From: a virus | Virus record (IMG/VR): IMGVR_UViG_3300024261_000062 | Span: 1 to 41,827 of that record | Strand: one strand, 5' to 3' | DNA: 41,827 bases | Shown here: in pieces, positions 8,836-41,799 of the stretch | How the letters are laid out: every line of letters begins with the position of its first letter | Position numbering within the stretch: position 1 is the first letter of the stretch | Translations under genes and position numbers: made by a program | The notes under the pieces: model-generated | Told to the model about the DNA's origin: nothing | Databases searched by the model: none | The model's input: only the letters and a program-made list of their open reading frames with translations

Positions 8836-8854
8836 AAAATTATCCTTTTAATTG

Positions 8855-18521: not shown

Positions 18522-18557
18522 AATCTACTCTCTCTAAGTTATTATTCATTATGATAT

Positions 18558-18586
18558 ATTATACCATAAGTTTGACAAAATGTCAA
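18558..18586 (-). promoter_or_regulatory. Sigma70-like promoter for the CobS-like gene
   Basis: TTGACA (18586-18581), 17-base spacer, TATAAT (18563-18558). Predicted start about 30 bases upstream of the ATG at 18521. The -35 lies inside a short palindrome (TTGACATTTTGTCAA). Confidence 0.9.
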
Positions 18587-18590
18587 CCTT

Positions 18591-18650
18591 TTTGTTTATC
18601 AATGATTTCAACGCGTTCCTTATATCTTGTTGAAATTATTATAAAACAAA
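18591..18650. repeat. Long imperfect inverted repeat between the CobT-like gene and the next promoter
   Basis: Arms AATGATTTCAAC (18601-18612) and GTTGAAATTATT (18629-18640) pair with one mismatch, and TTTGTTTAT/ATAAAACAAA extends the stem outward. It shares ATCAATGATTTCAA with the repeats at 33401-33530. It lies just upstream of the -35, so it may terminate the upstream transcript or bind a regulator. Confidence 0.6.
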
Positions 18651-18656
18651 TTTGCA

Positions 18657-21385: not shown

Positions 21386-22294
21386 TTATGCTTCTTTTCC
21401 ATTTAAAGCTCCGTAAAATTCATTATGTTTTAATAAGTATTGATTTAAAACTTCATGTTGTTTCTTTTCCCCTAAGTGTCCTTTGTATAGGGCATACTCG
21501 TGATATATAATTCTATTGGCATCTTCACGAGACATAGTTTTTGAATAATATTCAACTAACCAATCATATATAGTTAATTTCCAATCCACCTGGTTTGTTA
21601 AATTTTTACCTGTTAGAAACTCTTCTACGAATATTGGAACTTTATTTTCTACTTCAATTAAAGCTTGATCAACATGAGTTGGACCGTGCTTATAAGTAGG
21701 CACCCACAACATAGAGAAAAAATGTTTAAATAATTTCTTATACATATTTCGACAATTATAAAATGTCTCTGCCATCTCATTAAAGTATTCATTATCTATA
21801 AGAGCATCTAATATAACTTGAGGTAATTCATTTGCATTTACTTTTGTGCCATCAAGATCTAATCCCATGCGGCTATCCCAATGGGGTCCTACCTGAACAC
21901 ATTTTCTTTCTACAACATAATTCTTTACAGAAAGACTTTTCATCTTTTGTTGATGTAGAAAGAAGTTTCCTTTTCTACCTGTGCGGAACCATGAATCTAA
22001 TGTACCATCATACTTCTTTGATTTTCTTTCTATTGTCAAAGGATACATTTGACGTTGTGTTGTAAATTGAAGGATCACCATTTCATAATCTTCAACAAGG
22101 CAAGTCCTCAAAGCAGCTTCCATATTATTCTGCCCACCTCCTGGCGATGCAAATAGATGGATCTCATGTTGAGGAAATTTCCTTGCTAATTGACGAGGCC
22201 AACCTTTCCAAGCATCAAATCCACCTGATTTATTAAGGAGACCTGATTGGCTTACACCAGCACTATGAGAGCATCCAATTATTCCAACTTTCAT
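21386..22294 (-). CDS. SGNH-hydrolase-like protein
   Basis: A 302-residue protein opening GIIGCSHSAG, where the serine of GCSHS would be the block I nucleophile, and continuing with ASPGGGQNNMEAAL, resembling the Gly/Asn oxyanion blocks. The region VDQALIEVENK onward is helical, and the expected C-terminal D-x-x-H is not clear to me. AAAGGA precedes the ATG. It lies at the downstream end of a cluster with a carbamoyltransferase and an acyltransferase, so action on acylated or carbamoylated glycans is plausible inference. Confidence 0.65.
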   Translation of the reverse strand: MKVGIIGCSHSAGVSQSGLLNKSGGFDAWKGWPRQLARKFPQHEIHLFASPGGGQNNMEAALRTCLVEDYEMVILQFTTQRQMYPLTIERKSKKYDGTLDSWFRTGRKGNFFLHQQKMKSLSVKNYVVERKCVQVGPHWDSRMGLDLDGTKVNANELPQVILDALIDNEYFNEMAETFYNCRNMYKKLFKHFFSMLWVPTYKHGPTHVDQALIEVENKVPIFVEEFLTGKNLTNQVDWKLTIYDWLVEYYSKTMSREDANRIIYHEYALYKGHLGEKKQHEVLNQYLLKHNEFYGALNGKEA

Positions 22295-22751
22295 AATCCT
22301 TTATATGTCCATGGTTAAAATTAGTAAAAACTTTTTTATAGTAAGGTAAAGTTTTTAAAAATTTATTATATTCAATTTCCCAAAATTCATGATTACAATA
22401 ATATTCCAAAAAAGGTTTCCAATGAAGACTCTTTTTAATTTTTACGTTTTTATTTCTCATTAATATTTTACTACCTTGAGGTCCTTCTACTTCAGATAAT
22501 GTCTTCTTACCTTCAGCATGTTCTCTATCTCTGGGATATATTTTATCTTCATCAAACCCTATGCTCTTATGAAAATCCTGATATATCAAATATACAGAAA
22601 TATCAGAACCCCTCTCTTCGAAACATTTGCGAATCAAATGTTCTTGATAATCAAACCCCAATTCTTTATCATCATACATACCATCAAGATGATGCTGTCT
22701 TAACATAAAACTTAATCGTTCTGCAGGTCCGATTAATACTTTTTCAATCAT
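22263..22751 (-). CDS. Hypothetical protein (162 aa)
   Basis: Begins MIEKVLIGPAERLSFMLRQHHLDGM and ends by overlapping the SGNH-like gene by 32 bases. The composition is rich in lysine and aromatic residues, with no membrane segment and no clear catalytic motif. Because it is coupled to the SGNH-like protein it probably takes part in the same modification step. No family recognised. Confidence 0.72.
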   Translation of the reverse strand: MIEKVLIGPAERLSFMLRQHHLDGMYDDKELGFDYQEHLIRKCFEERGSDISVYLIYQDFHKSIGFDEDKIYPRDREHAEGKKTLSEVEGPQGSKILMRNKNVKIKKSLHWKPFLEYYCNHEFWEIEYNKFLKTLPYYKKVFTNFNHGHIKDYESWNNWMLS

Positions 22752-22824
22752 ATATAAATGGATCTAAATCTTGTTTCTTTTTACCAAAAATCTTTTCTTT
22801 AATTTTAAGAAAGAACAGTAACAC
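22744..22824 (-). CDS. Possible small protein downstream of the carbamoyltransferase (26 aa)
   Basis: A reading frame starting GTG at 22824 (LLFFLKIKEKIFGKKK) and ending DLDPFIYD. It overlaps both neighbours by 8-20 bases and AAGAG lies upstream. Hydrophobic start, basic middle and an acidic DPFIYD tail resemble small hypothetical proteins I remember from T4-like phages, but the evidence is thin. It could instead be a non-coding spacer. Confidence 0.35.
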   Translation of the reverse strand: MLLFFLKIKEKIFGKKKQDLDPFIYD

Positions 22825-24253
22825 CCGTTCTCTTAGTGAAAGCTTCGGCGTCTTCTCTTGTGTTGACAATTGGTTGCCCTTTTACATTTAAGGAAGTGTT
22901 TAACAATACAGGACATCCTGTTATTTCCTTCCAAAGTTTTAATAATGTTATATGAGGTTCTGAATCAACAACTTGCAATCTTGATGTTCCATCTAAATGA
23001 ACAACACCAGGATATTTCTGTTTAAATTCTTCTGTTGCTGATAATGCACAACTCATATAAGGTGAATGAAATCCACCATTAAAATATTGTGCCACGTCTT
23101 CAGGTAATATCATCGGAGCAAAAGGTCTGAACTGTTCTCTACCCTTTGTTTCATTTATTTTTTGTTTTATTTTTTTATCAGTAGGATCTCCGAAGAGTGT
23201 TCTATTACCTAAAGCACGTGGTCCGAATTCACATCTTCCGTTTGCTACTCCAACTACTCGATCGATCATCAAGTGTTCAATTATTTCTTTGATCGGATAT
23301 GGTCCTTGTATATCATAACCAAGATAAGGAGTAGGACTAATATGGTTTCTTGTTCTTGCAAGAATACATCCAATAGCTGATCCAGAGTCACCTGGATTAG
23401 CTGGTATATAGATGTTAGAAAAATAATCAGATAATAATCTATTGGCACTAACATTTAAAGCACATCCTCCCACAAATACTATATTTCCATTATTTAATTT
23501 ATGAGTACTTAACTCTTTTAATATTTTACGAAACTCTTCTTCGTAAACATGTTGTGCGGCAGTGGGCACATCCTCAGGATGGATTTCTGGTTTCACATTC
23601 CACTCTGGAATATTTTTACATCCTTTATGCCAGGTCATATTTTTTGTTTCCCAACAATCTCTAATTCTATTTACTACTACATCATAAGGATATGATTGTC
23701 TAGCAGCAGCCCCCATCATAATATATTCTTCTTCATTAGGCTTCCAACCTGAGTACTGTGTCAATGCTGAATACATTAATCCTAACGACTTAGGATATTT
23801 CCAGTTCCATAATTTTTTAAATTTATGATCTTTAACATGCCAAGCAGTTAATGTTTCCCATTCTCCTATAGCATCAATACATAATACCATGCATTTAGTA
23901 AAAGGTGATGTATAATAACCATATGCCGCATGTGACCTATGATGTGGGGTATACTTCATCTTATAACGTTTAGTATTATATGGATGTGGCAACACAGGTG
24001 GCTTCCAGGCAGGCTTCTGTCCAGCATACCATCTTCGAGAAATCTTTATACGAGGATCTTCATAAAAATAAATTTTATCTGGTTCATCATATTCTTCTCT
24101 CACATAGTCTAACAAGCTTAAAGGTATTTGAGGATCATTCTTTTTTCTAGAAAATCTTTCAGCGTCGGTTGCAAATATCACCTCTTGTTTCACACTATCA
24201 TAAACAGCTAAGGCACCGTCATGTGATCCACAAGTAATACCCCAATATATCAT
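22805..24253 (-). CDS. Carbamoyltransferase (NodU/CmcH/TobZ family)
   Basis: A 482-residue enzyme that makes carbamoyl-adenylate and transfers the carbamoyl group to a hydroxyl, usually of a sugar. The opening GITCGSHDGALAVYD and HHRSHAAYGYYTSPF give the metal-binding histidines of the Kae1-like domain; GGCALNVSANR follows; the C-terminal domain has GRCEFGPRALGNRTLFGDP and GCPVLLNTSLN. It appears intact. The gene starts 4 bases inside the previous SGNH gene. It is known in marine T4-like phages; the substrate here is unknown. Confidence 0.93.
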   Translation of the reverse strand: MIYWGITCGSHDGALAVYDSVKQEVIFATDAERFSRKKNDPQIPLSLLDYVREEYDEPDKIYFYEDPRIKISRRWYAGQKPAWKPPVLPHPYNTKRYKMKYTPHHRSHAAYGYYTSPFTKCMVLCIDAIGEWETLTAWHVKDHKFKKLWNWKYPKSLGLMYSALTQYSGWKPNEEEYIMMGAAARQSYPYDVVVNRIRDCWETKNMTWHKGCKNIPEWNVKPEIHPEDVPTAAQHVYEEEFRKILKELSTHKLNNGNIVFVGGCALNVSANRLLSDYFSNIYIPANPGDSGSAIGCILARTRNHISPTPYLGYDIQGPYPIKEIIEHLMIDRVVGVANGRCEFGPRALGNRTLFGDPTDKKIKQKINETKGREQFRPFAPMILPEDVAQYFNGGFHSPYMSCALSATEEFKQKYPGVVHLDGTSRLQVVDSEPHITLLKLWKEITGCPVLLNTSLNVKGQPIVNTREDAEAFTKRTGVTVLS

Positions 24254-24942
24254 ATCACGTTCTCATTAAATATTATATCATTCACAGGTTCATTATTAAA
24301 CAACCTCTTTATATAGGATGATAAATTTTTATGATTCTCTTCTGTAAAATGATTTGATCTCCAATCTTTAAATGAAGGATCATAACCGGACTTTATCTCT
24401 GCGCGAGATATATCCATTAATGTTATGTCAGGTATAATAAATTTTTCTGTATTTTCTATTTCCACAGGGGCATATAAATCTCTATTATGTGAAGTGGAGA
24501 AATATATAACCTTTTCATATTGTTCTGATAAAGCCTTTAATACACATCTAGCCTTTGTTGCTTTGTGATAGTCCTTATAATTTATATGAAAATATTCTAT
24601 AAACTTTTTATGTTGATTAAGGTATGTCATTTGAGGTGATGAAAGCCATTTATCATTTTCCCACTCTTTCATATCATCAAATAGAACCGCACCTGCATGA
24701 CCAGGATATTGTAAGAACTCAAAATGAAATCTTCTTGGAATAGATTCGATATAAATTACTTTACCTTCTCTATGATTATGCCCTTCAAGAAAAATATTCA
24801 AAGACCAATCAATACTAGAACCCGCTAAACCAAAAACAAATGAAGGCTCATCTAAAAGATTGAACCATCTTTTTTCTGATGATATTCCTCCACCTTTTCC
24901 ATTGAGAGGATCACAATATGAATCACCGAATACGTGTATCAT
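24250..24942 (-). CDS. SGNH/GDSL-like hydrolase
   Basis: A 230-residue protein starting MIHVFGDSYCDPLNG, with the GDS nucleophile block, GLAGSSIDWSLN as the Gly block, and DWRSNHFTEENH near the C-terminus supplying the D-x-x-H pair. This is the pattern of esterases and deacylases acting on lipids or sugar O-acyl groups. It overlaps the genes on both sides by 4 and 20 bases, so it is tightly coupled with the carbamoyltransferase. Confidence 0.75.
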   Translation of the reverse strand: MIHVFGDSYCDPLNGKGGGISSEKRWFNLLDEPSFVFGLAGSSIDWSLNIFLEGHNHREGKVIYIESIPRRFHFEFLQYPGHAGAVLFDDMKEWENDKWLSSPQMTYLNQHKKFIEYFHINYKDYHKATKARCVLKALSEQYEKVIYFSTSHNRDLYAPVEIENTEKFIIPDITLMDISRAEIKSGYDPSFKDWRSNHFTEENHKNLSSYIKRLFNNEPVNDIIFNENVI

Positions 24943-25642
24943 GTACTTTAAAATGAGAGCAATCGTGTTCGTGATTATTAGTATTCATATTATATGATAA
25001 ATCAATACCTGTAAATGAACTCATATCATCAACAAATACTTTATTTCTAACATGGAGTCTATAGGCCCAATCAGTTCTAACCTCTCTATACATATCCCAA
25101 CTTTCTCTTTGAGTTGTATCGAGATTAAAGATCCATCTCTTATCATTAATACGTATTATATGTAATCTGAACTTGTGCAACGGTATAGATTTATTATACA
25201 TCTTATGTTGCCAATTACCTATTTCTGTGGAAACTGCTGAATAGAATAATTCAGATGGTGGTTTATATGCCTTCTCAAATCTTATAGTATCTATTTCATC
25301 TGGATGATATTGGGTTACTACATTATCTTCTTCAACATAAATCGTTGCTTTATCATACTCACAAATATCTATGCACCAGCCAGTTGGTGTAGCCGGTTGT
25401 AACCAGTCTCCATTTCTCCATATTCCATCTAACGGTTTAAAAAACCATGCTTCATTGGGAACACCGAGCTTATCTCTAGGAGGATGTTCTTCATCAAAAA
25501 TATTATCACTTCTAAGATCAGGTAGATTCCAAGAAAAATCAAATAGCATTTTTCTCGGCTTCTCTTTCCAATAATCATAAGCCGCTTCGGTCAATTTCCA
25601 AGTTGATACTGTACCGCCTGGACCATTAAGAAATATTTCCAT
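24923..25642 (-). CDS. Hypothetical protein (239 aa)
   Basis: Rich in tryptophan and tyrosine, with alternating beta-like stretches (KATIYVEEDNVVTQYHPDE, FRLHIIRINDKRWIFNLD). Starts MEIFLNGPGGTVSTWKL and ends in a histidine-rich tail (NNHEHDCSHFKVHD). No motif that I recognise. Its coupling to the downstream SGNH gene places it in the modification cluster. Confidence 0.72.
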   Translation of the reverse strand: MEIFLNGPGGTVSTWKLTEAAYDYWKEKPRKMLFDFSWNLPDLRSDNIFDEEHPPRDKLGVPNEAWFFKPLDGIWRNGDWLQPATPTGWCIDICEYDKATIYVEEDNVVTQYHPDEIDTIRFEKAYKPPSELFYSAVSTEIGNWQHKMYNKSIPLHKFRLHIIRINDKRWIFNLDTTQRESWDMYREVRTDWAYRLHVRNKVFVDDMSSFTGIDLSYNMNTNNHEHDCSHFKVHDTRIR

Positions 25643-25667
25643 TAGAACTGTTCTTTTTATCTTTCTA

Positions 25668-25907
25668 TTAGTTTAAATAAAAACTATCAATATCTCTCCC
25701 AGCACATTCAGGAGATAGTTCACCCATCTTTTCTATAATGGAATGTAATTTATCTACATCATTTTTATTTTTGGAAAAGAACTGGGATGATTTATAATTA
25801 TTTTTTTGTAGATACTCTTTGCATTCTCTTAATTCATGTAATTCAAACACAGTTGTATCCACACACAATTTATCGTCTACAATAGATAAAAACGCTTCTT
25901 TGTTCAT
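25668..25907 (-). CDS. Hypothetical small protein (79 aa)
   Basis: I start it at 25907 (MNKEAFLSIV), one base after the preceding stop; the longer reading from 25958 would overlap the LpxA-like gene by 50 bases. Charged and helical, with two cysteines (one in PECAGRD). No ribosome site is obvious, so translation probably depends on coupling. Unknown function. Confidence 0.6.
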   Translation of the reverse strand: MNKEAFLSIVDDKLCVDTTVFELHELRECKEYLQKNNYKSSQFFSKNKNDVDKLHSIIEKMGELSPECAGRDIDSFYLN

Positions 25908-25908
25908 A

Positions 25909-26508
25909 TTAGTATTTAGATCTTTCTTCGATAATACTTTGTCTTCTTTCATCTTCACCTTTCATATCCTCTACAGCAAGACCGTTTCGCTGTAAACCAA
26001 CTTCATTATACTTTTTAAATCTTGCTGGGACTCCATACCACAATGTACCACATTTAATATCAGCTCCCTTAGGTACGATAGAACCCATACCTAACATACA
26101 ATATGAACCTATAACTTGGAACTGATGTATTGATACACTATAACCTATATTTGTATTTTCCATAACATATACGTGCCCACCAAAAGCTGCATTATTACTA
26201 ATGATACAATTTGATTCAACATAACAATCATGTGCTATGTTAGAATTAATCATCAAATAACAATTATCTTCTATAGCTGTTAACTTTGACCATTCAGTTG
26301 GCATATTTACAGAAACAGATTCTCTGAATATATTATTATCTCCAATAGAAATAACACCTGTAGATTTATCTCTAATACTTTGAGCATCTGTACCGATACA
26401 AGTATAAGCTCCTATAATATTATTTTCACCCATCTCAACAACGTCCCAATTAATAAGAGCTGTCTTATGTATTTTATTTGAACCTACATAATACCAATCG
26501 CTAGTCAT
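25909..26508 (-). CDS. LpxA-like hexapeptide acyltransferase
   Basis: A 199-residue left-handed beta-helix protein. The repeating hexapeptides (e.g. IGAYTCIGTDAQ, VYVMENTNIGYSVSIHQ, IGSYCMLGMGSIV) follow the UDP-GlcNAc O-acyltransferase pattern, and HDCYVESNCIISNNAAFGGHV contains the catalytic-type histidine. The LpxA C-terminal helical domain is mostly missing, so it is shorter than LpxA (262). Possible reactions are acylation of a nucleotide sugar or O-acetylation. It overlaps the adjacent transferase gene by 4 bases. Confidence 0.85.
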   Translation of the reverse strand: MTSDWYYVGSNKIHKTALINWDVVEMGENNIIGAYTCIGTDAQSIRDKSTGVISIGDNNIFRESVSVNMPTEWSKLTAIEDNCYLMINSNIAHDCYVESNCIISNNAAFGGHVYVMENTNIGYSVSIHQFQVIGSYCMLGMGSIVPKGADIKCGTLWYGVPARFKKYNEVGLQRNGLAVEDMKGEDERRQSIIEERSKY

Positions 26509-27248
26509 GTCTCTGTCCTCACAAATAAAGGTTCATATTCATATTGTCTCTGTCCATCAAATTGATACTGCTTTTTATCTAACTCATAAATTATTTGTGA
26601 TGGGACATTACCTACTAGCCATGCTTTAGTATTTTTTAAATATGACTCTCTACCTTGACGTAAGTGTCTTACAAAACCATCTCTATTAGTCCATATTGGT
26701 ACTTTATCTTTTTGAAGTCTATATGAAATGTGATGATCAGAAGCTTTACCATTCTCCCAAACTCCTAAAGGATACTTTAATAAAATATCTCTAGTAAAAC
26801 AACTAGTTGCAAAACTTGCAATTGCAGTTTGAAAATTTCCTTCTTTACTTAATACCTCATCAACGGAAGCCCAAGGAGGATAGTCATCATATAAAGGTCT
26901 AACAAGAGATGCATTTTCATCTATTAATGGTAATGCATGAAATGAAACATTAGAGTGCGAACTTATTTTATCTCCGTACATTTCCATATTACACCAACCG
27001 GTGAATACATCGTACTTAGGTGCATTAGCTAATACAGTATCAATAGCTCTTTTATAGCTAATAGCATCATCTGACATAATAACATAATGACTGAAGTTAG
27101 TTTGTTTAACAAACATATTCATTTCATGTACTACTTGAGGTTCAGTAAATGCTTTAAACCATACTCTAGGTAAATTCCAATTCTCTCTCATAGATGTTAT
27201 AGCCGGAGGTATTATTCTTGGCTGCATTATCATTAATACAGGATTCAT
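26505..27248 (-). CDS. Glycosyltransferase-like protein
   Basis: A 247-residue protein with the look of a GT-A enzyme: FSHYVIMSDDAI gives an acidic DD metal site, FATSCFTRDILLKYP resembles the central acceptor region, and DHHISYRLQKDKVPIW places an acidic/histidine pair near the C-terminus. It is joined to genes on both sides by 4-base overlaps. Sugar donor and acceptor are unknown. Confidence 0.7.
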   Translation of the reverse strand: MNPVLMIMQPRIIPPAITSMRENWNLPRVWFKAFTEPQVVHEMNMFVKQTNFSHYVIMSDDAISYKRAIDTVLANAPKYDVFTGWCNMEMYGDKISSHSNVSFHALPLIDENASLVRPLYDDYPPWASVDEVLSKEGNFQTAIASFATSCFTRDILLKYPLGVWENGKASDHHISYRLQKDKVPIWTNRDGFVRHLRQGRESYLKNTKAWLVGNVPSQIIYELDKKQYQFDGQRQYEYEPLFVRTET

Positions 27249-27946
27249 ATCCAGTTGTCCAATATTTTAGGATTAAACTTTACTCTATTCAGTTGTTGAG
27301 GTTTTGGTTTACCATGAAAGTAAACTATAGAAGCATTATTTAATAAAGTTGGATTAGACATTATATGACACTTATAAGATAATATACGATTAGGAAATCC
27401 AATATCTATTCTGGGTACTCTTCCATCTTCATTAAATAACTTTCTCATCATCTCTAATTCAGAAGGAATATTCCACGGAGCTAATCTACAATGTTTTAAA
27501 ACCCAATCTCGTTTATTAGTCCAAACATCCCAAATATAATTAGATGTCTTATCACTAACAATACATATTGCATTACAAACATCACCTTCTATCATTGGAT
27601 CTGATATTAATCCAACATCTAAAGGAAAAGATAGAATGTCGTCAATGTTAGACATTATAACAGTGTCTAAGCCAATAATCATTCTACGATTAGTTGTAAT
27701 ATCTGGACGAAATAATTCAGCTAATAAAGACCAGCCTGGAGTGGTAGGGTCTAGGAAGGGAACAGAACGAATCGGTTCGTTGAATTTATAATCATCATCA
27801 ACTAAACAAACCAACTCAAAATCTGTTGTAATGTTTCTCTTTAATCCACGATAAAGTTTATCTGCCCATTCAGCGTTATATATTTCTGCAGAGTGTGGTA
27901 AACCCTTTCCGGTTCCTTTAAAGAGAGCGCATATAATCGATATCAT
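27245..27946 (-). CDS. Glycosyltransferase, GT8-like
   Basis: A 233-residue protein. I choose ATG 27946 (MISIICALFKG) over the TTG at 27958. It has DFELVCLVDDD, then MIIGLDTVI (D-x-x as metal site, as LDTD/DxD in GT8), and the C-terminal SIVYFHGKPKPQ that resembles the HxxGxxKPW motif of GT8 enzymes. It overlaps the end of the preceding gene by 29 bases. A likely step is addition of a sugar to a glycan or to a virion or DNA acceptor. Confidence 0.78.
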   Translation of the reverse strand: MISIICALFKGTGKGLPHSAEIYNAEWADKLYRGLKRNITTDFELVCLVDDDYKFNEPIRSVPFLDPTTPGWSLLAELFRPDITTNRRMIIGLDTVIMSNIDDILSFPLDVGLISDPMIEGDVCNAICIVSDKTSNYIWDVWTNKRDWVLKHCRLAPWNIPSELEMMRKLFNEDGRVPRIDIGFPNRILSYKCHIMSNPTLLNNASIVYFHGKPKPQQLNRVKFNPKILDNWI

Positions 27947-28130
27947 TAAATCGCTCAAATTGAATAGGCGTTAAGTCTCCATCTTCTGACAACGCCTTTA
28001 TAACATCATATTCTTCATCTAGTATTTGCAATTCATATTCAACTGAGTCTTTGACTCTCGCTGTCTTTACTTCATATTGTAATTCTTGTAATTCTTTTGC
28101 AATCCAAATTCGTCTAATATTTCTATTCAT
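27918..28130 (-). CDS. Small charged protein with structured leader (70 aa)
   Basis: Starts MNRNIRRIWIAKELQELQYEVK; a basic N-terminus followed by an acidic coiled region. AAAGGAGA precedes the ATG by 4 bases. Codons 2-7 form one arm of a perfect 15-bp inverted repeat with the leader, so its start and ribosome site lie in the loop (see the regulatory feature). Basic N-terminus plus such a leader would suit an RNA- or DNA-binding regulator that controls itself; this is inference. Confidence 0.75.
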   Translation of the reverse strand: MNRNIRRIWIAKELQELQYEVKTARVKDSVEYELQILDEEYDVIKALSEDGDLTPIQFERFNDIDYMRSL

Positions 28131-33392: not shown

Positions 33393-33400
33393 CAGAAATA

Positions 33401-33504
33401 ATTATCAATGATTACAATAGAATAGTTAGAGGGTGTTGATATCATTGCTGATAAAAGATTATCAATGATTTCAATAGGATAATTAGAGGGTGTTGATATC
33501 ATTG
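33401..33504. repeat. Two tandem 47-base intergenic repeats with inverted-repeat ends
   Basis: Copies at 33401-33447 and 33458-33504 differ at 3 of 47 positions; period 57. Each opens ATTATCAATGAT and closes GATATCATTG, so each can fold into a hairpin, the second with 11-bp arms (TTATCAATGAT/ATCATTGATAA). A partial third copy (AATGATTTCAATAAGATAAT) overlaps the end of the radical SAM gene near 33521-33540. The 200-base gap contains only these repeats and the promoter. Confidence 0.8.
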
Positions 33505-33527
33505 ATAAACAAATATCTATAATGATT

Positions 33528-35525
33528 TCAATAAGATAATAAATTTGTTAGAAATTCTTTATATTCTTTGGGAATATAATGTTTATTATAGTTGTAATCA
33601 TAATAATGCAATCGTTCTGTTCTATAAAATTCTTTTAAATTATAATGTTCTTTATTAAAAAAGTCAACTGCTACTTTTGCGGCCAAAAGAATACCATCAT
33701 ATAAATTTAGATAATATGGTATTAATTTAAGATTTATTTTTTTAAAAGGTTTATTGTTTTTATATGCATAATCAAAGAATAGTTTTAACTCATGTTTATT
33801 TACATCAGGAAATATTTCTTTATTATTTGATTGTTGTTTAAATTTAAATAATTTCCGATTCTTATTAATAAAATCTGCATATACATTCAAATCAAAATCG
33901 TTATTCCCATAAAGAAATAATGTCATCATATCCTTTGCATTTTTTAAATGCGAGAAAAAATTTGATGTTTGGCTAAATGCAATTTGTCTTTTTAGTATGT
34001 TTCCTGTGAAACAATTTAATCCACTATCTTGTGTAAATTGATATATATTGGAGTTTGTATTATCATTAGCAAATCCAGCCGCAACAGAATAATCTCCTAA
34101 AGGGGTTCCCGGAAATGGGGAATAGAGTGCATTCCAATAATAATCTTCTTTTCTAAAATTAGATTTAGAAATTAGATCTAAACATTTTAAAGACTCTTGT
34201 ATAGGGTCTTCATAATAATATTCTTTTAACGGCAAGTCCTTAGATGGCTTTACATATTGTTTTGGTTTAACTGTTGGTAATCCGACTATTGCTTGTGTTC
34301 TTAATTCTATATTAAATCGTTTAACATTGTTAATAGCATCTATGATAGTTTCATTAGATTCGTGTCTGTCTAATAATAATTTTCTAATATTAGGATCACC
34401 CGATTCTATTGCCATAGATATACCTGCTACTATGTTATTTTTTGAAATAATATTTATTCTATCTTTACCACCTTTACCCGCCAACATTCCTGGTCTAGCT
34501 TGTATATAAAATGGTATATTAATTTCTTTCCATCTAACACTAAACTCCTTCCACCATTTAATATTGTTAAGAGAAATATCCGCTTGATCAAATATCGCTG
34601 TTGTTTTAATATTATATTTTTCATCTAATCTTAATATATCTTTACCTTCTTCGATTAGAGTTTCTATTGGTCTATCTTGTATTATACTAGGAGGCAAAAT
34701 ATTTGATCCATCATATGCTTCTTTTAAATTTTCTATTAAAGAACTTATATAACAATATGTGCAAGAATATGCACAACCAAGAGCAGTAAGAACAGATTTA
34801 ACTTCACTCAATGCATATATTTTAGTTTTGTCTGAAAAATTAAAAGTGTCTTCATAAAATTTTTCTCTATCCATACGAGGAATATTAGCATAAGGCATAG
34901 GATCGTGATATATTCCTGGTCGATATAATCCTAATAATATATCTCTAAAAATATTAATTCCCTTTCCTCTTACAACATAATCTCCACCAAATTCTTTTGC
35001 TTCTTTAAAATTATAATTATTATAATGACCGCCAATTATTATAGGTATTGTTTTTTTATTTGAAAATTTATATTGTTTAACCCAATCAAAAAAATAATTA
35101 CTGACACCAGTATATAAACTAATTCCTATCCAATCGGGTTTAAATTGTTCTATTACTTCATATGTTTTGTGTATATTACTTTCATTAACTAACAAATAAT
35201 ATCGTTCACCATTCATGTCACGAACTATACCACCCAATGCCATTAAAGTAATATTTTCTATTTCACTTATATCATGGCTAAGAAATAAAACTCTAGGTTT
35301 TAAATTAGGTTTAGTTTGTTGTAAATGTAATTTATAATTTGACCAATCACTAGTTATGCTATTAGGTGTATATAAAGTATTATTATATTTTCCTATTATG
35401 GATTTAATTTCAGGCAAATGTTCTTCTAGTGGATAACCTAACGGATTTTCTAAATTATCTTTTTTCTTTGGCAACATTTTTTGGTAGTCAATACTATTGT
35501 ACTTTGTCAAGAACAATGAAGACAT
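33528..35525 (-). CDS. Radical SAM enzyme with cobalamin-binding domain
   Basis: A protein of about 665 residues. The N-terminal half is a B12-binding-type Rossmann domain (VLFLSHDISEIEN, WIGISLYTGVSN, PIIIGGHYN). The radical SAM domain has TALGCAYSCTYCYIS near residue 255 (C-x3-C-x2-C), then SMAIESGDPN. The C-terminal 200 residues are unassigned. Such enzymes methylate or rearrange unactivated carbons. The canonical D-x-H-x-x-G cobalamin motif is not evident, so base-off B12 binding is uncertain. The start is uncertain: ATG 35525, TTG 35534 or ATG 35477; none has a good ribosome site. Confidence 0.85.
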   Translation of the reverse strand: MSSLFLTKYNSIDYQKMLPKKKDNLENPLGYPLEEHLPEIKSIIGKYNNTLYTPNSITSDWSNYKLHLQQTKPNLKPRVLFLSHDISEIENITLMALGGIVRDMNGERYYLLVNESNIHKTYEVIEQFKPDWIGISLYTGVSNYFFDWVKQYKFSNKKTIPIIIGGHYNNYNFKEAKEFGGDYVVRGKGINIFRDILLGLYRPGIYHDPMPYANIPRMDREKFYEDTFNFSDKTKIYALSEVKSVLTALGCAYSCTYCYISSLIENLKEAYDGSNILPPSIIQDRPIETLIEEGKDILRLDEKYNIKTTAIFDQADISLNNIKWWKEFSVRWKEINIPFYIQARPGMLAGKGGKDRINIISKNNIVAGISMAIESGDPNIRKLLLDRHESNETIIDAINNVKRFNIELRTQAIVGLPTVKPKQYVKPSKDLPLKEYYYEDPIQESLKCLDLISKSNFRKEDYYWNALYSPFPGTPLGDYSVAAGFANDNTNSNIYQFTQDSGLNCFTGNILKRQIAFSQTSNFFSHLKNAKDMMTLFLYGNNDFDLNVYADFINKNRKLFKFKQQSNNKEIFPDVNKHELKLFFDYAYKNNKPFKKINLKLIPYYLNLYDGILLAAKVAVDFFNKEHYNLKEFYRTERLHYYDYNYNKHYIPKEYKEFLTNLLSY

Positions 35526-35574
35526 ATAGAGCAATAAACGCTAAACAGAAACAGCATATTAGAAAAGGTTTCAT
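35494..35574 (-). CDS. Membrane micropeptide with CCxC (26 aa)
   Basis: MKPFLICCFCLAFIALYV, continuing hydrophobic and ending DKVQ. AGGA lies 5 bases upstream and the start overlaps the previous stop (ATGA), which supports translation. Three cysteines in the membrane segment are striking. It precedes the radical SAM gene; a single-pass membrane peptide is the neutral call. Confidence 0.5.
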   Translation of the reverse strand: MKPFLICCFCLAFIALYVFIVLDKVQ

Positions 35575-36137
35575 AGAGATCCTAAGCATCTTGCATTAAT
35601 CTTTGAATGGGGACGGGGGGTCTTTGTATTAGATCCCGTTACATAATGAAGTAATAGTTGAACTTGATATATTCCTTCAAAGGGCAATCGCCAATGTACG
35701 TGCTTCTTGGGGTCTTGCGTGTACAAGAGGGCATCTCCAATATTTAGCTTTATTGGAACATCGTCATCGATATATAGAGGCCATACAGACCCTTGATAGC
35801 TATCACTATAAAGGTAACCTGTAGGTATAGTAAGAGATATTTCACAGACGTCCTTATCTATATGTTTATTTAAACGTGCACCGATTTCATATACAATGTA
35901 ATATGAATAAGAAGGATAAATTTCCTTATCTTTAAAATATCGTTGCACTCTTGGTAAAAAAGCATTTAATGATGCTTCAGCAAAACGATCTTGATATGCT
36001 CCATGAGTTTCAGGTCCAGGTGTTTCATGTTTCTTTTTACTGTAAGGTTTAAATCGCTCTAATCGTTCATTGAGAGCATATACTGTAAATGCCTTACAAT
36101 AGTCTTCATCTATAAATCCAGGTATTACTTTAAACAT
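35571..36137 (-). CDS. 2OG-Fe(II) oxygenase, prolyl-hydroxylase-like
   Basis: A 188-residue double-stranded beta-helix oxygenase. YYIVYEIGARLNKHIDKD supplies the H-x-D, IKLNIGDALLYTQDP is the strand before the distal site, and KHVHWRLPFEG gives the distal histidine and a basic residue. Similar small oxygenases are frequent in marine phages, with unknown protein or nucleic-acid substrates. It overlaps the GT9-like gene by 8 bases. Confidence 0.8.
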   Translation of the reverse strand: MFKVIPGFIDEDYCKAFTVYALNERLERFKPYSKKKHETPGPETHGAYQDRFAEASLNAFLPRVQRYFKDKEIYPSYSYYIVYEIGARLNKHIDKDVCEISLTIPTGYLYSDSYQGSVWPLYIDDDVPIKLNIGDALLYTQDPKKHVHWRLPFEGIYQVQLLLHYVTGSNTKTPRPHSKINARCLGSL

Positions 36138-36834
36138 GTATCAACTGTGTCCCTAATTTATTGGCCATGGTTAATACATCCATCGGTCTACTATGTTCAG
36201 TTGTCCAAAATTCCTTTAAATCAAAGCTATGGCCCTTCCAAGGCATTGTTTGATTAAAATAAACTAAAGCGGGAACTCTCATCATTCTAGCTAAATGAGC
36301 AATACCACCTTCTGAACAAATTAAAAATTTACAATTCTTTAATACACTAGTTAACATATAACCATATTGATCGAAATTATATTCGATGTTATAGATCGTC
36401 TTGTTAGGTCCCAAGCTTGGAACAATAACTATCTTATGTCCATTTGCTTTAAGACTTCTTATCATCATTTCTATAGAAGTAAGATCTGCTACTTTATCTT
36501 GATGAGCAGCTGATTTCGATTTATGATGTGTATATAACCATATGGCTACATAATCCCCTCCTTGATGCATTTCTTTTGCCGGCCAATAAACATGATCGTG
36601 TTGACCTAATGGTGGATCATCTGTTTGAGTAAATGTTTTAAACTCATGTGTAATTAAATCATTAGGTTTAAAAAAGTTTAATACTCGTTTTACCTGTCTA
36701 TGGGTTCGAGGTTGTAAATGCCAATTAATTATTGTAGGTTCACTAGCACTTATATAATCATATGATATCTGATTTATTAAATCCCCAAACCCAGAGCTAT
36801 ATCCTTTATTTGTCCAATACTTGTTTATTTCCAT
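36130..36834 (-). CDS. GT-B glycosyltransferase-like protein (GT9/heptosyltransferase type)
   Basis: A 234-residue protein. GYSSGFGDLINQIS is a glycine-rich N-terminal loop; HKIVIVPSLGPN and LICSEGGIAHLARMMRVPALVYF resemble the donor-binding C-terminal domain of family 9 enzymes, where a (S/T)-x-(S/D)-G-x-x-H segment binds the sugar nucleotide. It is shorter than classical members (about 340). Overlaps a 64-aa gene by 29 bases. Confidence 0.7.
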   Translation of the reverse strand: MEINKYWTNKGYSSGFGDLINQISYDYISASEPTIINWHLQPRTHRQVKRVLNFFKPNDLITHEFKTFTQTDDPPLGQHDHVYWPAKEMHQGGDYVAIWLYTHHKSKSAAHQDKVADLTSIEMMIRSLKANGHKIVIVPSLGPNKTIYNIEYNFDQYGYMLTSVLKNCKFLICSEGGIAHLARMMRVPALVYFNQTMPWKGHSFDLKEFWTTEHSRPMDVLTMANKLGTQLIHV

Positions 36835-37000
36835 TTAGAAGTTTTCTATACATTTTATATGCTTTATCTAAAACATTATCTAGGTTCTGTGACATTTCTC
36901 CTTGTAGTGTCATTTGATCAATAATATATTCACCTGTGTATGGGTACATAGCATTAATATGTTTGTTAACTTTATTAATAACTAGTCTTCGAGTATACAT
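36806..37000 (-). CDS. Hypothetical small protein (64 aa)
   Basis: MYTRRLVINKVNKHINAMY, charged and helical, with AAAGGAG 6 bases before the ATG. Coupled to the GT9-like gene. No family recognised. Confidence 0.65.
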   Translation of the reverse strand: MYTRRLVINKVNKHINAMYPYTGEYIIDQMTLQGEMSQNLDNVLDKAYKMYRKLLNGNKQVLDK

Positions 37001-37009
37001 AGATCTCCT

Positions 37010-37681
37010 TTATTCGTCTACATTAACACATCCTACTATATGACATCTATCCACATCCATAGATAGATTAACTCCAGAGTGATAAACCTCTGTATTCATT
37101 AAATGAGCTCCTCCTGTTGGTTTTATTTGATGTACAACTTTATTACCATCATTGTCTTCTATAATATGAAAACTGTCACTATCCCCATATAAGGGAATAT
37201 GTATTCTCATTCCTAGATCATAATGCCATGATAGACACGATTTAGGTTTTAATAACATTAATCGAGTCCTATACATCTTTAGTTGTTTTATTAACTTATT
37301 CGTATATGGCATATCAAATATAGGAACAATAAAATCTTTTTCTTCGTGACCACCATCTTCTAATTCTTTAACTCTTCTCGATCCAAAATAAGGATCATTC
37401 TTTCCTTCAAAACAACCTTGTAATAATATTTGACAGTTTCCCGGTTTCTTCCATTCTGGGTTTAACTTATCAACTGTTTCTTCCACTTCTTTGTTTATCT
37501 TTTCTATATCAATATCTTCTTTGATTGACATAGTTCTTTTAGTACTTCCTAATCTAACTCTTAGTGGTGGTTGGGCTTTCCTTAATCTTTCTACATCTTT
37601 CATTGACATAGTATTATCCAATTGACTTCTGTTCGCTTTAATTCTCAAATTTTCTAGGTAACTATAATCTGGTATTTCCAT
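37010..37681 (-). CDS. Aspartyl/asparaginyl-hydroxylase-like 2OG-Fe(II) oxygenase
   Basis: A 223-residue protein. The C-terminal half has LSWHYDLGMRIHIPLYG (H-x-D and the R-x-H strand), GAHLMNTEVYHSGVNLS with the distal histidine, and a following arginine (DVDRCHIVGCV). This is the pattern of the aspartyl/asparaginyl beta-hydroxylase fold. The N-terminal 90 residues are basic and unassigned. It has its own promoter at 37714-37742. Confidence 0.8.
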   Translation of the reverse strand: MEIPDYSYLENLRIKANRSQLDNTMSMKDVERLRKAQPPLRVRLGSTKRTMSIKEDIDIEKINKEVEETVDKLNPEWKKPGNCQILLQGCFEGKNDPYFGSRRVKELEDGGHEEKDFIVPIFDMPYTNKLIKQLKMYRTRLMLLKPKSCLSWHYDLGMRIHIPLYGDSDSFHIIEDNDGNKVVHQIKPTGGAHLMNTEVYHSGVNLSMDVDRCHIVGCVNVDE

Positions 37682-37713
37682 TTATTATTATCCCTTGTGG
37701 TACAACATTTATT

Positions 37714-37742
37714 ATTATACAGCATTTTTTCAAAAATGTCAA
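37714..37742 (-). promoter_or_regulatory. Sigma70-like promoter for the hydroxylase-like gene
   Basis: TTGACA (37742-37737), 17-base spacer, TATAAT (37719-37714), 33 bases before the ATG at 37681. The -35 overlaps the last codons of the SET-domain gene. Confidence 0.9.
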
Positions 37743-38053
37743 CTAAAAACTTCATTAAAAGTAATTTTATATAAAGTATATGTCCAAGTAAGTTCTTCTC
37801 CCGACTCAATATCTTTTGAAGCACAAATCCACCACGAGCCATCTTCCATTAATATTTTACTACAATTGGGGTCATCAGAATGATTTCCGAATCCACCTAG
37901 AGGTGTGCGAATGTATCCATCTTCACTTTCTTTTCGAGGATGATGTGTAATCCCAATTAATGAATTGGCTTCAATTTTCTCTGTTGCAAAAAGTCCAAGT
38001 CCACTAATAGGAGATTTTTTAATTGTTATATAATCTGGAAGAGGGTTATACAT
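37739..38053 (-). CDS. SET-domain protein (putative protein lysine methyltransferase)
   Basis: A 104-residue minimal SET domain. SPISGLGLFATEKIEANSLIG is split here as its N-terminal SAM-binding G-x-G region; FGNHSDDPNCS gives the pseudoknot N-H-S-x-x-P-N-C, and SKDIESGEELTWTY the G-E-E-L-x-x-x-Y. It lacks pre-SET and post-SET zinc clusters. SET enzymes transfer methyl from SAM to protein lysines. The gene overlaps the radical SAM gene by 8 bases, so they are co-translated. Confidence 0.85.
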   Translation of the reverse strand: MYNPLPDYITIKKSPISGLGLFATEKIEANSLIGITHHPRKESEDGYIRTPLGGFGNHSDDPNCSKILMEDGSWWICASKDIESGEELTWTYTLYKITFNEVFS

Positions 38054-39389
38054 TTATATTATCCAGATGTTTTACTAATAAAGGGTCTATATAATCCTTA
38101 TAAGATTGATTTCTAACAGTATCTAAAATAACTAATTCTCTTTTAAACTTCTTATAATCCCCGTTATGATTATTAATTGCATTTTGTATTTGACCAACTA
38201 AATTATGAATATTAAATCTATACCACTTCTTATATTCTTTCCCTTTTATAGTTGCATGCACAGTATCTGAATCTGCCACAGTTGATATACCTGAATCTAT
38301 TACTTCTATAAGCCTATCTAATGATTCTTCTAAAAGTTCTATGGGAATATTTCTAATTGATGTTCCCCTATTACCTGGAAACATTTCTGCAAAATGAATA
38401 TAATAATTAGGGACCTTATGATATATACATTTATTACATATCCATTCTATATAATCTGCAGCATTCAAAACATTAATACCAGATAACACCATATTAAAAT
38501 ATTGATGTTTAATATTATTACATGTACTTAGATATCTATCTAGACTTTCATTTAATTCATTCCAATCAGAATGATGTCTGATATAATTATAAGTTCTTTG
38601 TGTGCCGTCTATACTAAATGTATGACCCTGTTCTTTAAAGTTGTTTAACAGATTTGCTAACTCAGGTGTAAATTGAGTAGCATTAGTATGGAACTTTAAA
38701 GTTGTATTTTTAGCAGTGCCATCTTCAACATACTTTTCTAATACCTTTACAACTCGTCTATCATAAAAAGGTTCTCCACCAGATGCTTTTAACATTTTTA
38801 TCTGATGAGTATTATTCATTAACCAATCAATTACTTCGTTAGACTCTTTATCATAGATAACACCTTTCTCTATTGGCATTGCTCTATCACTTACTCTCAT
38901 AAATTCATCGTGGGTTCCGTTAGCACGCATTGCCTCTACATCCTTACCTATCTGATGAGAACTTCCTATATTGCACATTCTACAGGCTAAATTGCATAGG
39001 TTAGAAAGGGATATGTCAAACTCAAATAAACCATCAGTTTCTTTACCTCCATCAAAATCAGAACATTGTCTAAACGATTCTAAACCTTTTTCTTCCATCT
39101 TCCAGCAGACAGTACATGCTTCATTCTTTATGCCATTTGTTAAATCGTTTCTTAGCTTTTCGTATTGGGGAGAATTAAATATGTCAAGGGGATTCATTCC
39201 TGCTAGCTCCGTTTCGGAAAGACCCATGTTGTAATGCATATCTGCAGCCTCTCCCTTTTGTTCCACAGGGTTCATCATCATGCAACAAGGTGTAACATTA
39301 GTTGGTCTCTTACCATCGCCAGACCACTTCTTAAAGGTCATAGATTTAAATGGATAATGGCAATATGTTGGATGGTCTTTAGGATTCAT
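38046..39389 (-). CDS. Radical SAM protein with auxiliary cysteine clusters (twitch type)
   Basis: A 447-residue enzyme. The SAM cluster motif CNLACRMCNIGSS lies near residues 133-145 (C-x3-C-x2-C), preceded by extra cysteines (PTYCHYPF, VTPCCMM, CTVCWKMEEKG) that could bind a second Fe-S cluster. MLKASGGEPF is the GGE motif and FSIDGTQRTYNYIRH follows. Related proteins occur in marine T4-like phages. Targets are unknown; peptide or sugar modification are the usual activities of this type. Starts at an ATGA overlap with a zinc-finger gene. Confidence 0.88.
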   Translation of the reverse strand: MNPKDHPTYCHYPFKSMTFKKWSGDGKRPTNVTPCCMMMNPVEQKGEAADMHYNMGLSETELAGMNPLDIFNSPQYEKLRNDLTNGIKNEACTVCWKMEEKGLESFRQCSDFDGGKETDGLFEFDISLSNLCNLACRMCNIGSSHQIGKDVEAMRANGTHDEFMRVSDRAMPIEKGVIYDKESNEVIDWLMNNTHQIKMLKASGGEPFYDRRVVKVLEKYVEDGTAKNTTLKFHTNATQFTPELANLLNNFKEQGHTFSIDGTQRTYNYIRHHSDWNELNESLDRYLSTCNNIKHQYFNMVLSGINVLNAADYIEWICNKCIYHKVPNYYIHFAEMFPGNRGTSIRNIPIELLEESLDRLIEVIDSGISTVADSDTVHATIKGKEYKKWYRFNIHNLVGQIQNAINNHNGDYKKFKRELVILDTVRNQSYKDYIDPLLVKHLDNINV

Positions 39390-39586
39390 ATATAAAATAA
39401 TATATCTGTCACTTCATTATTCTTATATTGATGGTGAGAATACATACACTTACTACAGACTTGACTAAACCCTTCAATATAACCAACGCGGGCCATTATA
39501 TTATCTGCTATATTATATTCTGTAGGTTTAGAACAAATCCTACAAATTTCTATTTCTGATTCTTCTTTTTGATCTGTACTATCCAT
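39386..39586 (-). CDS. Small zinc-finger-like protein (66 aa)
   Basis: Two cysteine pairs (ICRICSKP and VCSKCMYSHH) form a C-x2-C ... C-x2-C zinc ribbon. GGAGG lies 8 bases upstream. Translationally coupled to the radical SAM gene by a 4-base overlap; could be an accessory or substrate-binding partner, or a regulator. Confidence 0.75.
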   Translation of the reverse strand: MDSTDQKEESEIEICRICSKPTEYNIADNIMARVGYIEGFSQVCSKCMYSHHQYKNNEVTDILFYI

Positions 39587-39631
39587 CCGTGGCCTCCGCT
39601 CCTGGCTTTAGTGTCGTTTACCCAACAAATC

Positions 39632-39775
39632 TTAATCTTGTTTATAATGTCCATCTGACAAGTAATAAATCATCGCATCGATCAAATCGGGAGCACCCCA
39701 AGATATCACCAGCCATAATATTATCAAACAAACACTCATAAATCCACATATAGTGGAAACGTTATTTTCATTCAT
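39632..39775 (-). CDS. Small membrane protein (47 aa)
   Basis: MNENNVSTICGFMSVC leads into a transmembrane helix (LIILWLVISWGAPDLI) and a charged tail (SDGHYKQD). Weak ribosome site. It fills an otherwise empty gap between two zinc proteins. Confidence 0.5.
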   Translation of the reverse strand: MNENNVSTICGFMSVCLIILWLVISWGAPDLIDAMIYYLSDGHYKQD

Positions 39776-41213: not shown

Positions 41214-41287
41214 TGGCTGATCATGTAGGAATCGAACCCACATCTTCAATTTTGGAAATTGAGGTTTTACCATTAAACTAATGACCA
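41214..41287 (-). tRNA. tRNA-Trp(CCA)
   Basis: Acceptor TGGTCAT/ATGATCA (one G-T pair), D stem GTTT/AAAC, anticodon stem TCAAT/ATTGA with loop TTCCAAA, T loop TTCGATT, discriminator G and encoded CCA. Confidence 0.9.
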
Positions 41288-41305
41288 ATTATACTAACAA
41301 GGCGT

Positions 41306-41381
41306 TGGTAGGCGTGGGTGGATTTGAACCACCTTTGGAAGTATATAAGACTCCGAGCTTAACCAATTAGCAGACACGCCC
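41306..41381 (-). tRNA. tRNA-Ile(TAT)
   Basis: Acceptor GGGCGTG/CACGCCT, anticodon stem GGAGT/ACTTC with loop CTTATAT (anticodon TAT, codon AUA), T arm GGTGG/CCACC, encoded CCA. Direct reading of AUA rather than a lysidine-modified CAU. Confidence 0.88.
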
Positions 41382-41396
41382 AGTATCACTAAAATA

Positions 41397-41470
41397 TGGC
41401 GGCCTTTGAGGTATTTGAAACCTCCCTAAATGCTTGACAAGCATTCGTGCTACCACTACACCAAAAGGCC
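41397..41470 (-). tRNA. tRNA-Asp(GTC)
   Basis: Acceptor GGCCTTT/AAAGGCC, anticodon stem AATGC/GCATT with loop TTGTCAA, T loop TTTCAAA-type, discriminator G and encoded CCA. Confidence 0.92.
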
Positions 41471-41476
41471 AAATTG

Positions 41477-41553
41477 TGGTGGCGGGAGTGAGAATTGAAC
41501 CCACTTTATACCTGCTTATGAGACAGGTCAAGATGCCTACCTTGCCTCCCGCT
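41477..41553 (-). tRNA. tRNA-Met(CAT), atypical
   Basis: Anticodon stem CCTGT/GCAGG with loop CTCATAA, D stem CAAG/CTTG, T arm GTGGG/CTCAC, encoded CCA. The first pair is an A1-C72 mismatch, position 8 is G instead of U, and the 11-24 pair is A-U. Could be elongator, initiator-like, or Ile(CAU). Confidence 0.82.
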
Positions 41554-41570
41554 ATTATTATTTATGAGTG

Positions 41571-41643
41571 AGCGAGTAGAGGGATTCGAACCCCCACCAA
41601 AAGATTGGAAATCTCTTGTGCTACCCTTGAACACCATACTCGC
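41571..41643 (-). tRNA. tRNA-Gly(TCC)
   Basis: Acceptor GCGAGTA/TACTCGC, anticodon loop TTTCCAA (TCC), T loop TTCGAAT. The 3' end reads TCAC, so CCA is not encoded, unlike its neighbours. Confidence 0.9.
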
Positions 41644-41707
41644 AGTCTATTATAGTTATTTTGCCAGAATAGTTAGTTCGTCAAGTTATTTCTCAACTTT
41701 TTTTCAC

Positions 41708-41799
41708 TGGCAGAGCCGACAGGATTCGAACCTGTGGAAGTTTTATTAAACCCCTCTTCATTAGCAATGAAGTGCTTTAGGCCACTCAGCCACGACTCT
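41708..41799 (-). tRNA. tRNA-Ser(GCT)
   Basis: Class II: acceptor AGAGTCG/CGGCTCT, anticodon stem CTTCA/TGAAG with loop TTGCTAA, long variable arm, T loop TTCGAAT, discriminator G, encoded CCA. Confidence 0.92.

Follow-up and report, generated by a model that had tools for sequence, protein, structure and literature searches.

An order-conserved four-enzyme gene core in marine T4-like phages, possibly a pathway modifying a protein or peptide

Introduction

Which acceptor, if there is a single one, is worked on by a phage gene cassette that combines oxygenases, radical S-adenosylmethionine (SAM) enzymes and a glycosyltransferase? Marine T4-like phages hold many genes of these kinds without known substrate, and the question is raised here by a minus-strand cassette in IMGVR_UViG_3300024261_000062, a virus record in a public collection of viral contigs. 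This genome fragment of 41.8 kb, analysed over its full 41,827 nucleotides (hereafter the window), is T4-like by its DNA polymerase, UvsX, DnaB-like helicase and clamp loader. Its DNA polymerase shares 49% identity with those of marine Synechococcus myoviruses, and the region from 33.5 to 41.8 kb has no nucleotide match among cultured phages. Four genes of the cassette form a core whose order is conserved among uncultured marine T4-like phages, encoding successively a twitch-type radical SAM enzyme, an AspH-type Fe(II)/2-oxoglutarate (2OG) oxygenase, a GT9-like glycosyltransferase and an oxygenase-like protein of the phrog_2954 family. Our preferred though tentative answer, to which we give a rough probability of 0.38, is that this core modifies one acceptor in the infected cell by oxidation, radical chemistry and glycosyl transfer, and that the acceptor is most likely a protein or peptide. 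The whole account is computational inference.

As an order-conserved four-enzyme unit, the core offers a small testable system for what such enzymes modify. A demonstrated product, if obtained, would shed light on the many viral genes classed as 'auxiliary'.

Conservation of the four-gene core

An earlier reading of this DNA, made from the letters alone (the original prediction), had grouped the genes of the cassette as one accessory enzyme cluster. Its open reading frames (ORFs) are all present where it had placed them, and all lie on the minus strand. It had recognized radical SAM genes as known from marine T4-like phages, but not this set as a named system. The four-gene order is not named in the literature searched, and similar mixed clusters already exist.

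Linkage was examined with four profiles, those for the GT9-like, AspH-type, phrog_2954 and twitch proteins, each run separately over 2.9 million viral contigs. The first three profiles returned an identical eight contigs each, while the twitch profile returned seven of these and one distant relative, the eighth contig beginning after the twitch gene. Three of the eight look like one phage, which leaves seven distinct phages with the window included, and all seven carry the four genes in one order and on one strand. The scans reach close relatives only, so absence elsewhere weighs less than presence.

The related viral contigs and loci compared with the window bear labels such as L001-L006 and L014. 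L001 and L002 are collinear with the window throughout and are therefore uninformative on whether adjacency is retained. Between the window and L003-L006, core adjacencies are kept in 12 of 12 cases, compared with 7 of 30 for the other common adjacencies. The ratio of nonsynonymous to synonymous substitution (dN/dS) of the core genes lies between 0.15 and 0.45 across relatives (0.15-0.24 for the twitch gene), indicating purifying selection. Judged from these comparisons of sequence, the conservation of the core exceeds chance, both in this selection and in an adjacency that outlasts that of its neighbours. The original prediction had proposed to ask whether its genes co-occur and keep their order in other phages, and had named independent occurrence without conserved linkage as its refutation. 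The outcome divides the cluster: the four core genes are linked in every close relative found, whereas the genes for the SET-domain protein, the zinc protein and the B12-binding radical SAM enzyme are separable, so that independent occurrence largely describes the genes outside the core.

Around the core, gene content varies. L004-L006 and L014 carry ClpS in place of SET between the twitch and AspH-type genes, phosphoribosyl pyrophosphate (PRPP) synthetase stands immediately before twitch in L003-L006, and L001 holds a possible third oxygenase between the GT9-like and phrog_2954 genes (2OG-FeII_Oxy, E 0.0035, below the cut-off). The cassette is also mosaic, its twitch protein being 95% identical to that of L001 while SET, the AspH-type oxygenase and the B12-radical SAM enzyme are nearest to L002. 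A six-gene transfer RNA (tRNA) array lies 5' of the cassette in a plastic region (41214..41799, minus strand; ARAGORN). Within the cassette, tRNA genes occur in L001 and L003-L006; since they interrupt it, what is conserved is a gene order and not one strict operon.

These features raise the alternative that the core has no common pathway, consisting instead of four separately useful early genes held together by cassette exchange in a tRNA-rich region. The tRNA genes that flank and interrupt the region and its mosaic alleles fit this explanation, as does pelagiphage Mosig, in which homologues of both oxygenases are single and apart. We nevertheless regard it as unlikely: the four genes stay ordered in the same phages whose neighbouring genes have been reshuffled, recombination within the cassette swaps alleles without gene loss, and SET, ClpS, tRNA genes and the possible third oxygenase have been inserted or replaced without breaking the set.

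Contact with tRNA genes, Tyr especially, also brings in nucleic acid as a target, either as hypermodified tRNA or as glycosylated phage DNA. A tRNA-Tyr starts directly after the twitch gene in L004-L006, and the combination of an oxygenase with a glycosyltransferase follows the known logic of DNA hypermodification. The partial genomes of six relatives, however, contain no tRNA-guanine transglycosylase and no thymidylate-synthase-type gene (PF00303), with positive control searches, and no TET/JBP match (PF12851), though that control gave no match. Neither oxygenase is of TET/JBP type, and a nucleic-acid substrate is very improbable.

Enzymes of the core

The twitch-type radical SAM protein (447 aa; 38046..39389, minus strand) belongs to the N_Twi_rSAM family, reaching 230.6 bits against NF033640 (E 3.3e-68; cut-off 170). 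It has the radical SAM motif CxxxCxxC, N-terminal auxiliary cysteines C10, C35, C36, C92 and C95, and a GGEP motif; this cysteine set and GGEP are invariant in 12 relatives. Two cassette-bearing contigs, G001 and G002, hold 15 and 13 N_Twi matches, respectively. Neighbourhoods of bacterial relatives were explored for the function of N_Twi and consist of tandem radical SAM arrays, at least some on phage-like contigs, with no substrate indicated.

Two oxygenases had been predicted in the cassette, and both are present: a 223-aa protein of the aspartyl beta-hydroxylase type and a 188-aa protein of the phrog_2954 family. For the latter the label 'prolyl-hydroxylase-like' did not hold, as it has no Pfam prolyl-hydroxylase match. 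The former (37010..37681, minus strand) matches the beta-hydroxylase PDB 7v4f by profile (E 1.3e-8 over the catalytic domain), with the HxD, distal His and Arg aligned. Its H153, D155, H201 and R212 are invariant, providing the HxD...H triad and the 2OG-binding Arg. As a single sequence it has no PF05118 match at E up to 1; a relative in phage Mosig is annotated Asp_Arg_Hydrox. The cassette enzyme differs from 7v4f in having additional N-terminal sequence, which is rich in Cys in L003, L004 and L006; 7v4f is Cpz10 and acts on a glycyluridine-type intermediate.

The 188-aa protein (35571..36137, minus strand; phrog_2954, E 3.3e-24) is a less certain oxygenase. Its family has relatives in 129 phage records, labelled either 2OG-Fe(II) oxygenase or ferrochelatase, and it carries a conserved HxD...H arrangement (H92xD94...H148-W-R). 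It has no Pfam match and no Arg or Lys about 10 residues past the distal His, as a prolyl 4-hydroxylase would have, and a profile search of solved structures gave chance matches only. An oxygenase identity is favoured because the homologue in Synechococcus phage S-SCSM2R (S-SCSM2R_301) forms one fused protein with a second domain that resembles a 2OG oxygenase. The ferrochelatase label finds no support, there being no Pfam ferrochelatase match at E up to 1. In the cultured pelagiphages HTVC008M (L103), HTVC023P (L105) and Mosig (L106), phrog_2954 homologues called 'ferrochelatase' sit within runs of 2OG-type oxygenase genes, which in HTVC008M and HTVC023P adjoin neck or tail genes, and the label looks like a misannotation there. 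The window encodes an additional 2OG-Fe(II) oxygenase outside the cassette (6515-7414; PF03171, E 1e-25).

Between the two oxygenase genes lies that of the GT9-like protein (234 aa; 36130..36834, minus strand), a heptosyltransferase-like glycosyltransferase, probably of GT-B type, recognized by a weak sequence match together with fold. It scores 12 bits against PF01075 (Glyco_transf_9), below the threshold of 22, and E 0.0028 against TIGR04372. Its AlphaFold model (predicted local distance difference test, pLDDT, 75.6; predicted template-modelling score 0.71) finds the heptosyltransferases TibC and WaaC as best Foldseek matches, at E of about 2e-3, and across relatives the motifs FGD18 and SEGGIAHL are invariant. 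At the sensitivity used, no relative was found by tblastn in 50,697 phage records, the cultured-phage comparison set, or among bacteria in GTDB genomes, and a profile search of solved structures gave chance matches only. TibC, the best fold match (E 1.5e-3), is a bacterial autotransporter heptosyltransferase with a protein as acceptor (PMC4358343). It differs in length (about 400 aa compared with 234) and shares about 11% identity with the GT9-like enzyme.

Possible acceptors of the modification

Proteins or peptides are the substrates of SET enzymes and of many SPASM/twitch radical SAM enzymes. Since amino-acid side chains are the usual target of the twitch/SPASM, AspH and SET families, and also that of TibC, a protein or peptide acceptor is favoured. 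In the mechanism that we propose for early to middle infection, the two Fe(II)/2OG oxygenases would hydroxylate side chains of a protein or peptide, the twitch enzyme would add further C-H functionalization, such as dehydrogenation, epimerization or a cross-link, and the GT9-like enzyme would move a sugar, perhaps heptose, from its nucleoside diphosphate onto the acceptor. Optional enzymes, namely the SET protein as a lysine methyltransferase, the B12-radical SAM enzyme and the possible third oxygenase of L001, may widen this chemistry in single lineages. Least certain in this scheme are the order of reactions and the assignment of the acceptor as a protein or peptide.

The acceptor would be encoded elsewhere in the phage or its host, and its place is probably outside the cassette because no small frame there is common to both sub-clades. 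Precursor-peptide candidates considered and set aside were the 64-aa ORF, a 47-aa secreted-looking peptide and the zinc protein, none of which is kept in the cassette across all phages. The secreted-looking peptide is encoded upstream of twitch in the window (39632-39775, minus strand), and its last 20 residues, DPDLIDALIYYLSDGYYK, are 80-85% identical to copies that lie downstream of twitch in L005 (11424-11543) and L006 (11509-11643); it is absent from the other contigs tested. The conserved precursor that marks a cluster for ribosomally synthesized and post-translationally modified peptides (RiPPs) was thus not found in the cassette.

A more specific form of the proposal likens the core to proteusin-type RiPP maturation ending in glycosylation, a phage-encoded hypermodification pathway for proteins or peptides. 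Acting early to middle in infection, it would equip a protein of the phage or its host with residues that are hydroxylated, radically altered and capped by sugar. The polytheonamide pathway has a comparable toolkit of radical SAM, B12-radical SAM, Fe/2OG hydroxylase and N-methyltransferase. Unlike it, the cassette lacks a conserved precursor peptide and has a glycosyltransferase, and N-methylation would fall to the SET protein. This specific form seems rather improbable.

Several observations weigh against a protein or peptide acceptor modified by all four enzymes. GT9 enzymes typically act on lipopolysaccharide (LPS), and the WaaC fold match is nearly as good as that of TibC. The phrog_2954 protein lacks the canonical 2OG-binding Arg or Lys, and its AlphaFold model was unusable (pLDDT 40). 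The twitch gene is split from the other three by tRNA genes in L003-L006, and also by clpS in L004-L006, so it need not belong to their pathway. The cassette itself yielded no acceptor, its small ORFs being confined to one sub-clade or the other. Finally, the nearest solved relative of the AspH-type oxygenase, Cpz10, hydroxylates an aminoacyl-nucleoside and not a protein (PMC9814697).

The first of these observations would suit remodelling of the host surface. In this scheme LPS or another envelope glycan would receive a heptose-like sugar from the GT9-like enzyme, with the oxygenases and radical SAM enzyme altering sugars or lipid substituents, and the changed receptor would exclude competing phages. 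Besides the typical role of GT9 proteins as LPS heptosyltransferases and the presence of WaaC among the top fold matches, the same phages encode other glycosyltransferase-like proteins, an acyltransferase-like protein and a NolO-like carbamoyltransferase. Pelagimyophages have been proposed to change host O-chains (PMC7029224), and early or middle expression would suit superinfection exclusion. AspH-type oxygenases and SET, however, are without known LPS activity, no sugar-nucleotide biosynthesis gene lies in or beside the cassette, and the GT9-like protein is short and below the PF01075 threshold. Surface remodelling is the leading alternative, a possible but doubtful explanation.

Cpz10, which belongs to the caprazamycin pathway, points in another direction, to a diffusible metabolite, for instance an aminoacyl-nucleoside or sugar derivative, that the cassette would make or tailor. 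PRPP synthetase directly before twitch in L003-L006 would fit such a pathway, and the related phage G001 has a large island whose products include halogenases, B12-binding proteins and an AMP-ligase. Set against this, the cassette contains no scaffold-forming enzyme (nonribosomal peptide synthetase, polyketide synthase or ligase), and PRPP synthetase is not beside it in the window, L001 or L002. A small-molecule product appears improbable.

Promoter and timing of expression

A perfect sigma-70 consensus promoter, TTGACA-17-TATAAT (12/12 match), lies between the SET and AspH-type genes (37714..37742, minus strand; read from 37742 to 37714) and is kept at the matching position in L001 and L002. 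The last three core genes follow it. The window contains six sites of this kind, where 0.21 would be expected, and all six are on the minus strand. By coordinates, the others stand just upstream of uvsX (6146), a CobS-like ATPase gene classed as 'porphyrin biosynthesis' in PHROGs (18521) and a peptidase gene (21209), among others, so the cassette shares this strong promoter type with replication genes. No late-type TATAAATA motif occurs within the cassette, and one is found 41 bp before the prohead gene. The second half of the cassette is therefore probably expressed early or middle and not late, a timing read from consensus sequence only. With a consensus promoter between them, SET and the following oxygenase are not coupled, and twitch and SET, upstream of the promoter, may be a separate unit. 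The original prediction had seen in the cluster a pathway modifying host or virion proteins, a peptide or a glycan; for the core, post-synthetic modification is still the preferred explanation. The promoter type disfavours the late timing of virion assembly.

Accessory genes of the cassette

In order of transcription, the minus-strand cassette comprises the 66-aa zinc-like protein, twitch radical SAM, SET, AspH-type oxygenase, 64-aa ORF, GT9-like transferase, phrog_2954 oxygenase, 31-aa transmembrane peptide and B12-binding radical SAM enzyme. The overlapping gene ends noted earlier were verified from the coordinates: 4 nt between the zinc protein and twitch, 8 nt between twitch and SET, 8 nt between the GT9-like and phrog_2954 genes, and 19 nt between the latter and the micropeptide. 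The two radical SAM enzymes and the SET domain of the original prediction likewise all exceed curated family cut-offs. As members of a common system, SET, the zinc protein, the micropeptide and the B12-radical SAM enzyme were ruled out on distribution.

The stand-alone SET protein (104 aa; 37739..38053, minus strand) matches PF00856 at 45.4 bits (E 1.2e-11; cut-off 22.4) and has the NHSxxPNC motif. Its GNHSDDPNC and ELTWTY align to KMT2A, and its PDB matches include the viral SET protein of PBCV-1 (1n3j). SET and the 64-aa ORF (36806..37000, minus strand; dN/dS 0.25), whose frame is kept in L001 and L002 only, are confined to the window and these two contigs, SET being absent from the cassettes of L003-L006. 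SET homologues occur without the cassette in P-SSM7, P-RSM6, Kolga, PH1 and L119, and in P-SSM7, Kolga and L119 their contexts are unrelated to it. L119 has two near-identical SET genes (4777-5082 and 8651-8947) with the same small genes before each, by sequence a multi-gene tandem duplication without the cassette. A literature search on phage SET lysine methyltransferases found nothing relevant.

The putative zinc-binding protein (66 aa; 39386..39586, minus strand), recognized by CxxC pairs, adjoins twitch in the window and L002; its homologue in L003-L005 is several kb off and unlinked. The micropeptide (31 aa; 35494..35589, minus strand), which overlaps the end of the phrog_2954 gene, had been called Cys-rich. 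It is instead a hydrophobic single-transmembrane peptide with two conserved cysteines, its frame kept in L001 and L002.

The B12-binding radical SAM gene is a 668-aa ORF (33528..35534, minus strand) exceeding the cut-offs of PF02310 (36.8 bits; cut-off 32.1) and PF04055 (41.6; 29.5). It reaches no NCBIfam subfamily cut-off and has no tblastn relative in the 50,697 phage records. Homology to L002 begins at ATG 35477, which is therefore the probable start (649 aa), and in that case the gene does not overlap the micropeptide. It is found in two of the seven phages, the window and L002, at 99% identity; a dS of 0.029 indicates, on this sequence measure, that it is younger than the flanking genes. 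At the same position in L001, the micropeptide is followed directly by the terminal repeats. These 57-nt imperfect direct repeats with inverted repeats mark the cassette 3' end (33396..33531, minus strand); the window, L001 and L002 all have them, and in L003 they align at the corresponding position.

Comparison with other phages and further observations

The nearest cultured phrog_2954 homologue (32% identity), that of S-SCSM2R (PQ898602), lies in a cluster (SSCSM2R_301-310) that gives a precedent for the combination in the cassette: the fusion with a 2OG oxygenase is followed, side by side, by glycosyltransferases, a radical SAM maturase-like protein and another 2OG oxygenase. The glycosyltransferases, however, are GT25-like and unrelated to the GT9-like enzyme, blastp shows no relationship between the radical SAM proteins, an AspH-type enzyme was not observed, and an aminotransferase and an amidinotransferase are added. 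Expanded radical SAM genes are shared with TARA_ERS488813_N000010, which has 12 (PMC5332604), and with the radical SAM cassettes of pelagimyophages (PMC7029224). These phages belong to the same broad marine T4-like group, but their radical SAM genes were reported without function (PMC5332604; PMC7029224). Aspartyl/asparaginyl hydroxylase is reported to be a core gene of pelagimyophages (PMC7029224). In cyanophages 2OG oxygenases are numerous, S-SCSM1 having 24 (PMC9602691), and have been proposed to act on 2OG levels (PMC3037559); one proposal is that such oxygenases simply drain 2OG.

In G001, an island (L113, L114; G001:C1:8000-46000) holds about 12 tandem radical SAM genes, two tryptophan halogenases, two large B12-binding proteins, PhyH and TauD oxygenases, a nitroreductase and an AMP-ligase fragment, and looks like a phage-borne natural-product-like cluster. 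Similar arrays occur in other viral contigs and contigs of metagenome-assembled genomes (L008, L025, L028, L031, L054, L058 and L060). The window has a second modification-type region (21386-28130) with a NolO-like carbamoyltransferase, several glycosyltransferase-like proteins, an acyltransferase and SGNH hydrolases. Related phage contigs have, among L009:18277-19488, L004:3671-4714 and L005:9036-10004, 11500-11868 and 18351-18938, genes for isocitrate lyase, a glutamine-synthetase-like protein, PRPP synthetase, ClpS and ClpP.

A conserved candidate structured RNA of about 210 nt, starting GGGTAAACGACACTAAAGCCAGG, was found in L004 (8319-8520), L006 (7392-7593), L119, L120, L122 and L125. Neither Rfam nor cultured phages gave a match to it. 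Of its 49 predicted pairs, 11 have compensatory changes, and at some loci it adjoins tRNA genes. The window retains only its 5' end (39601-39623, minus strand).

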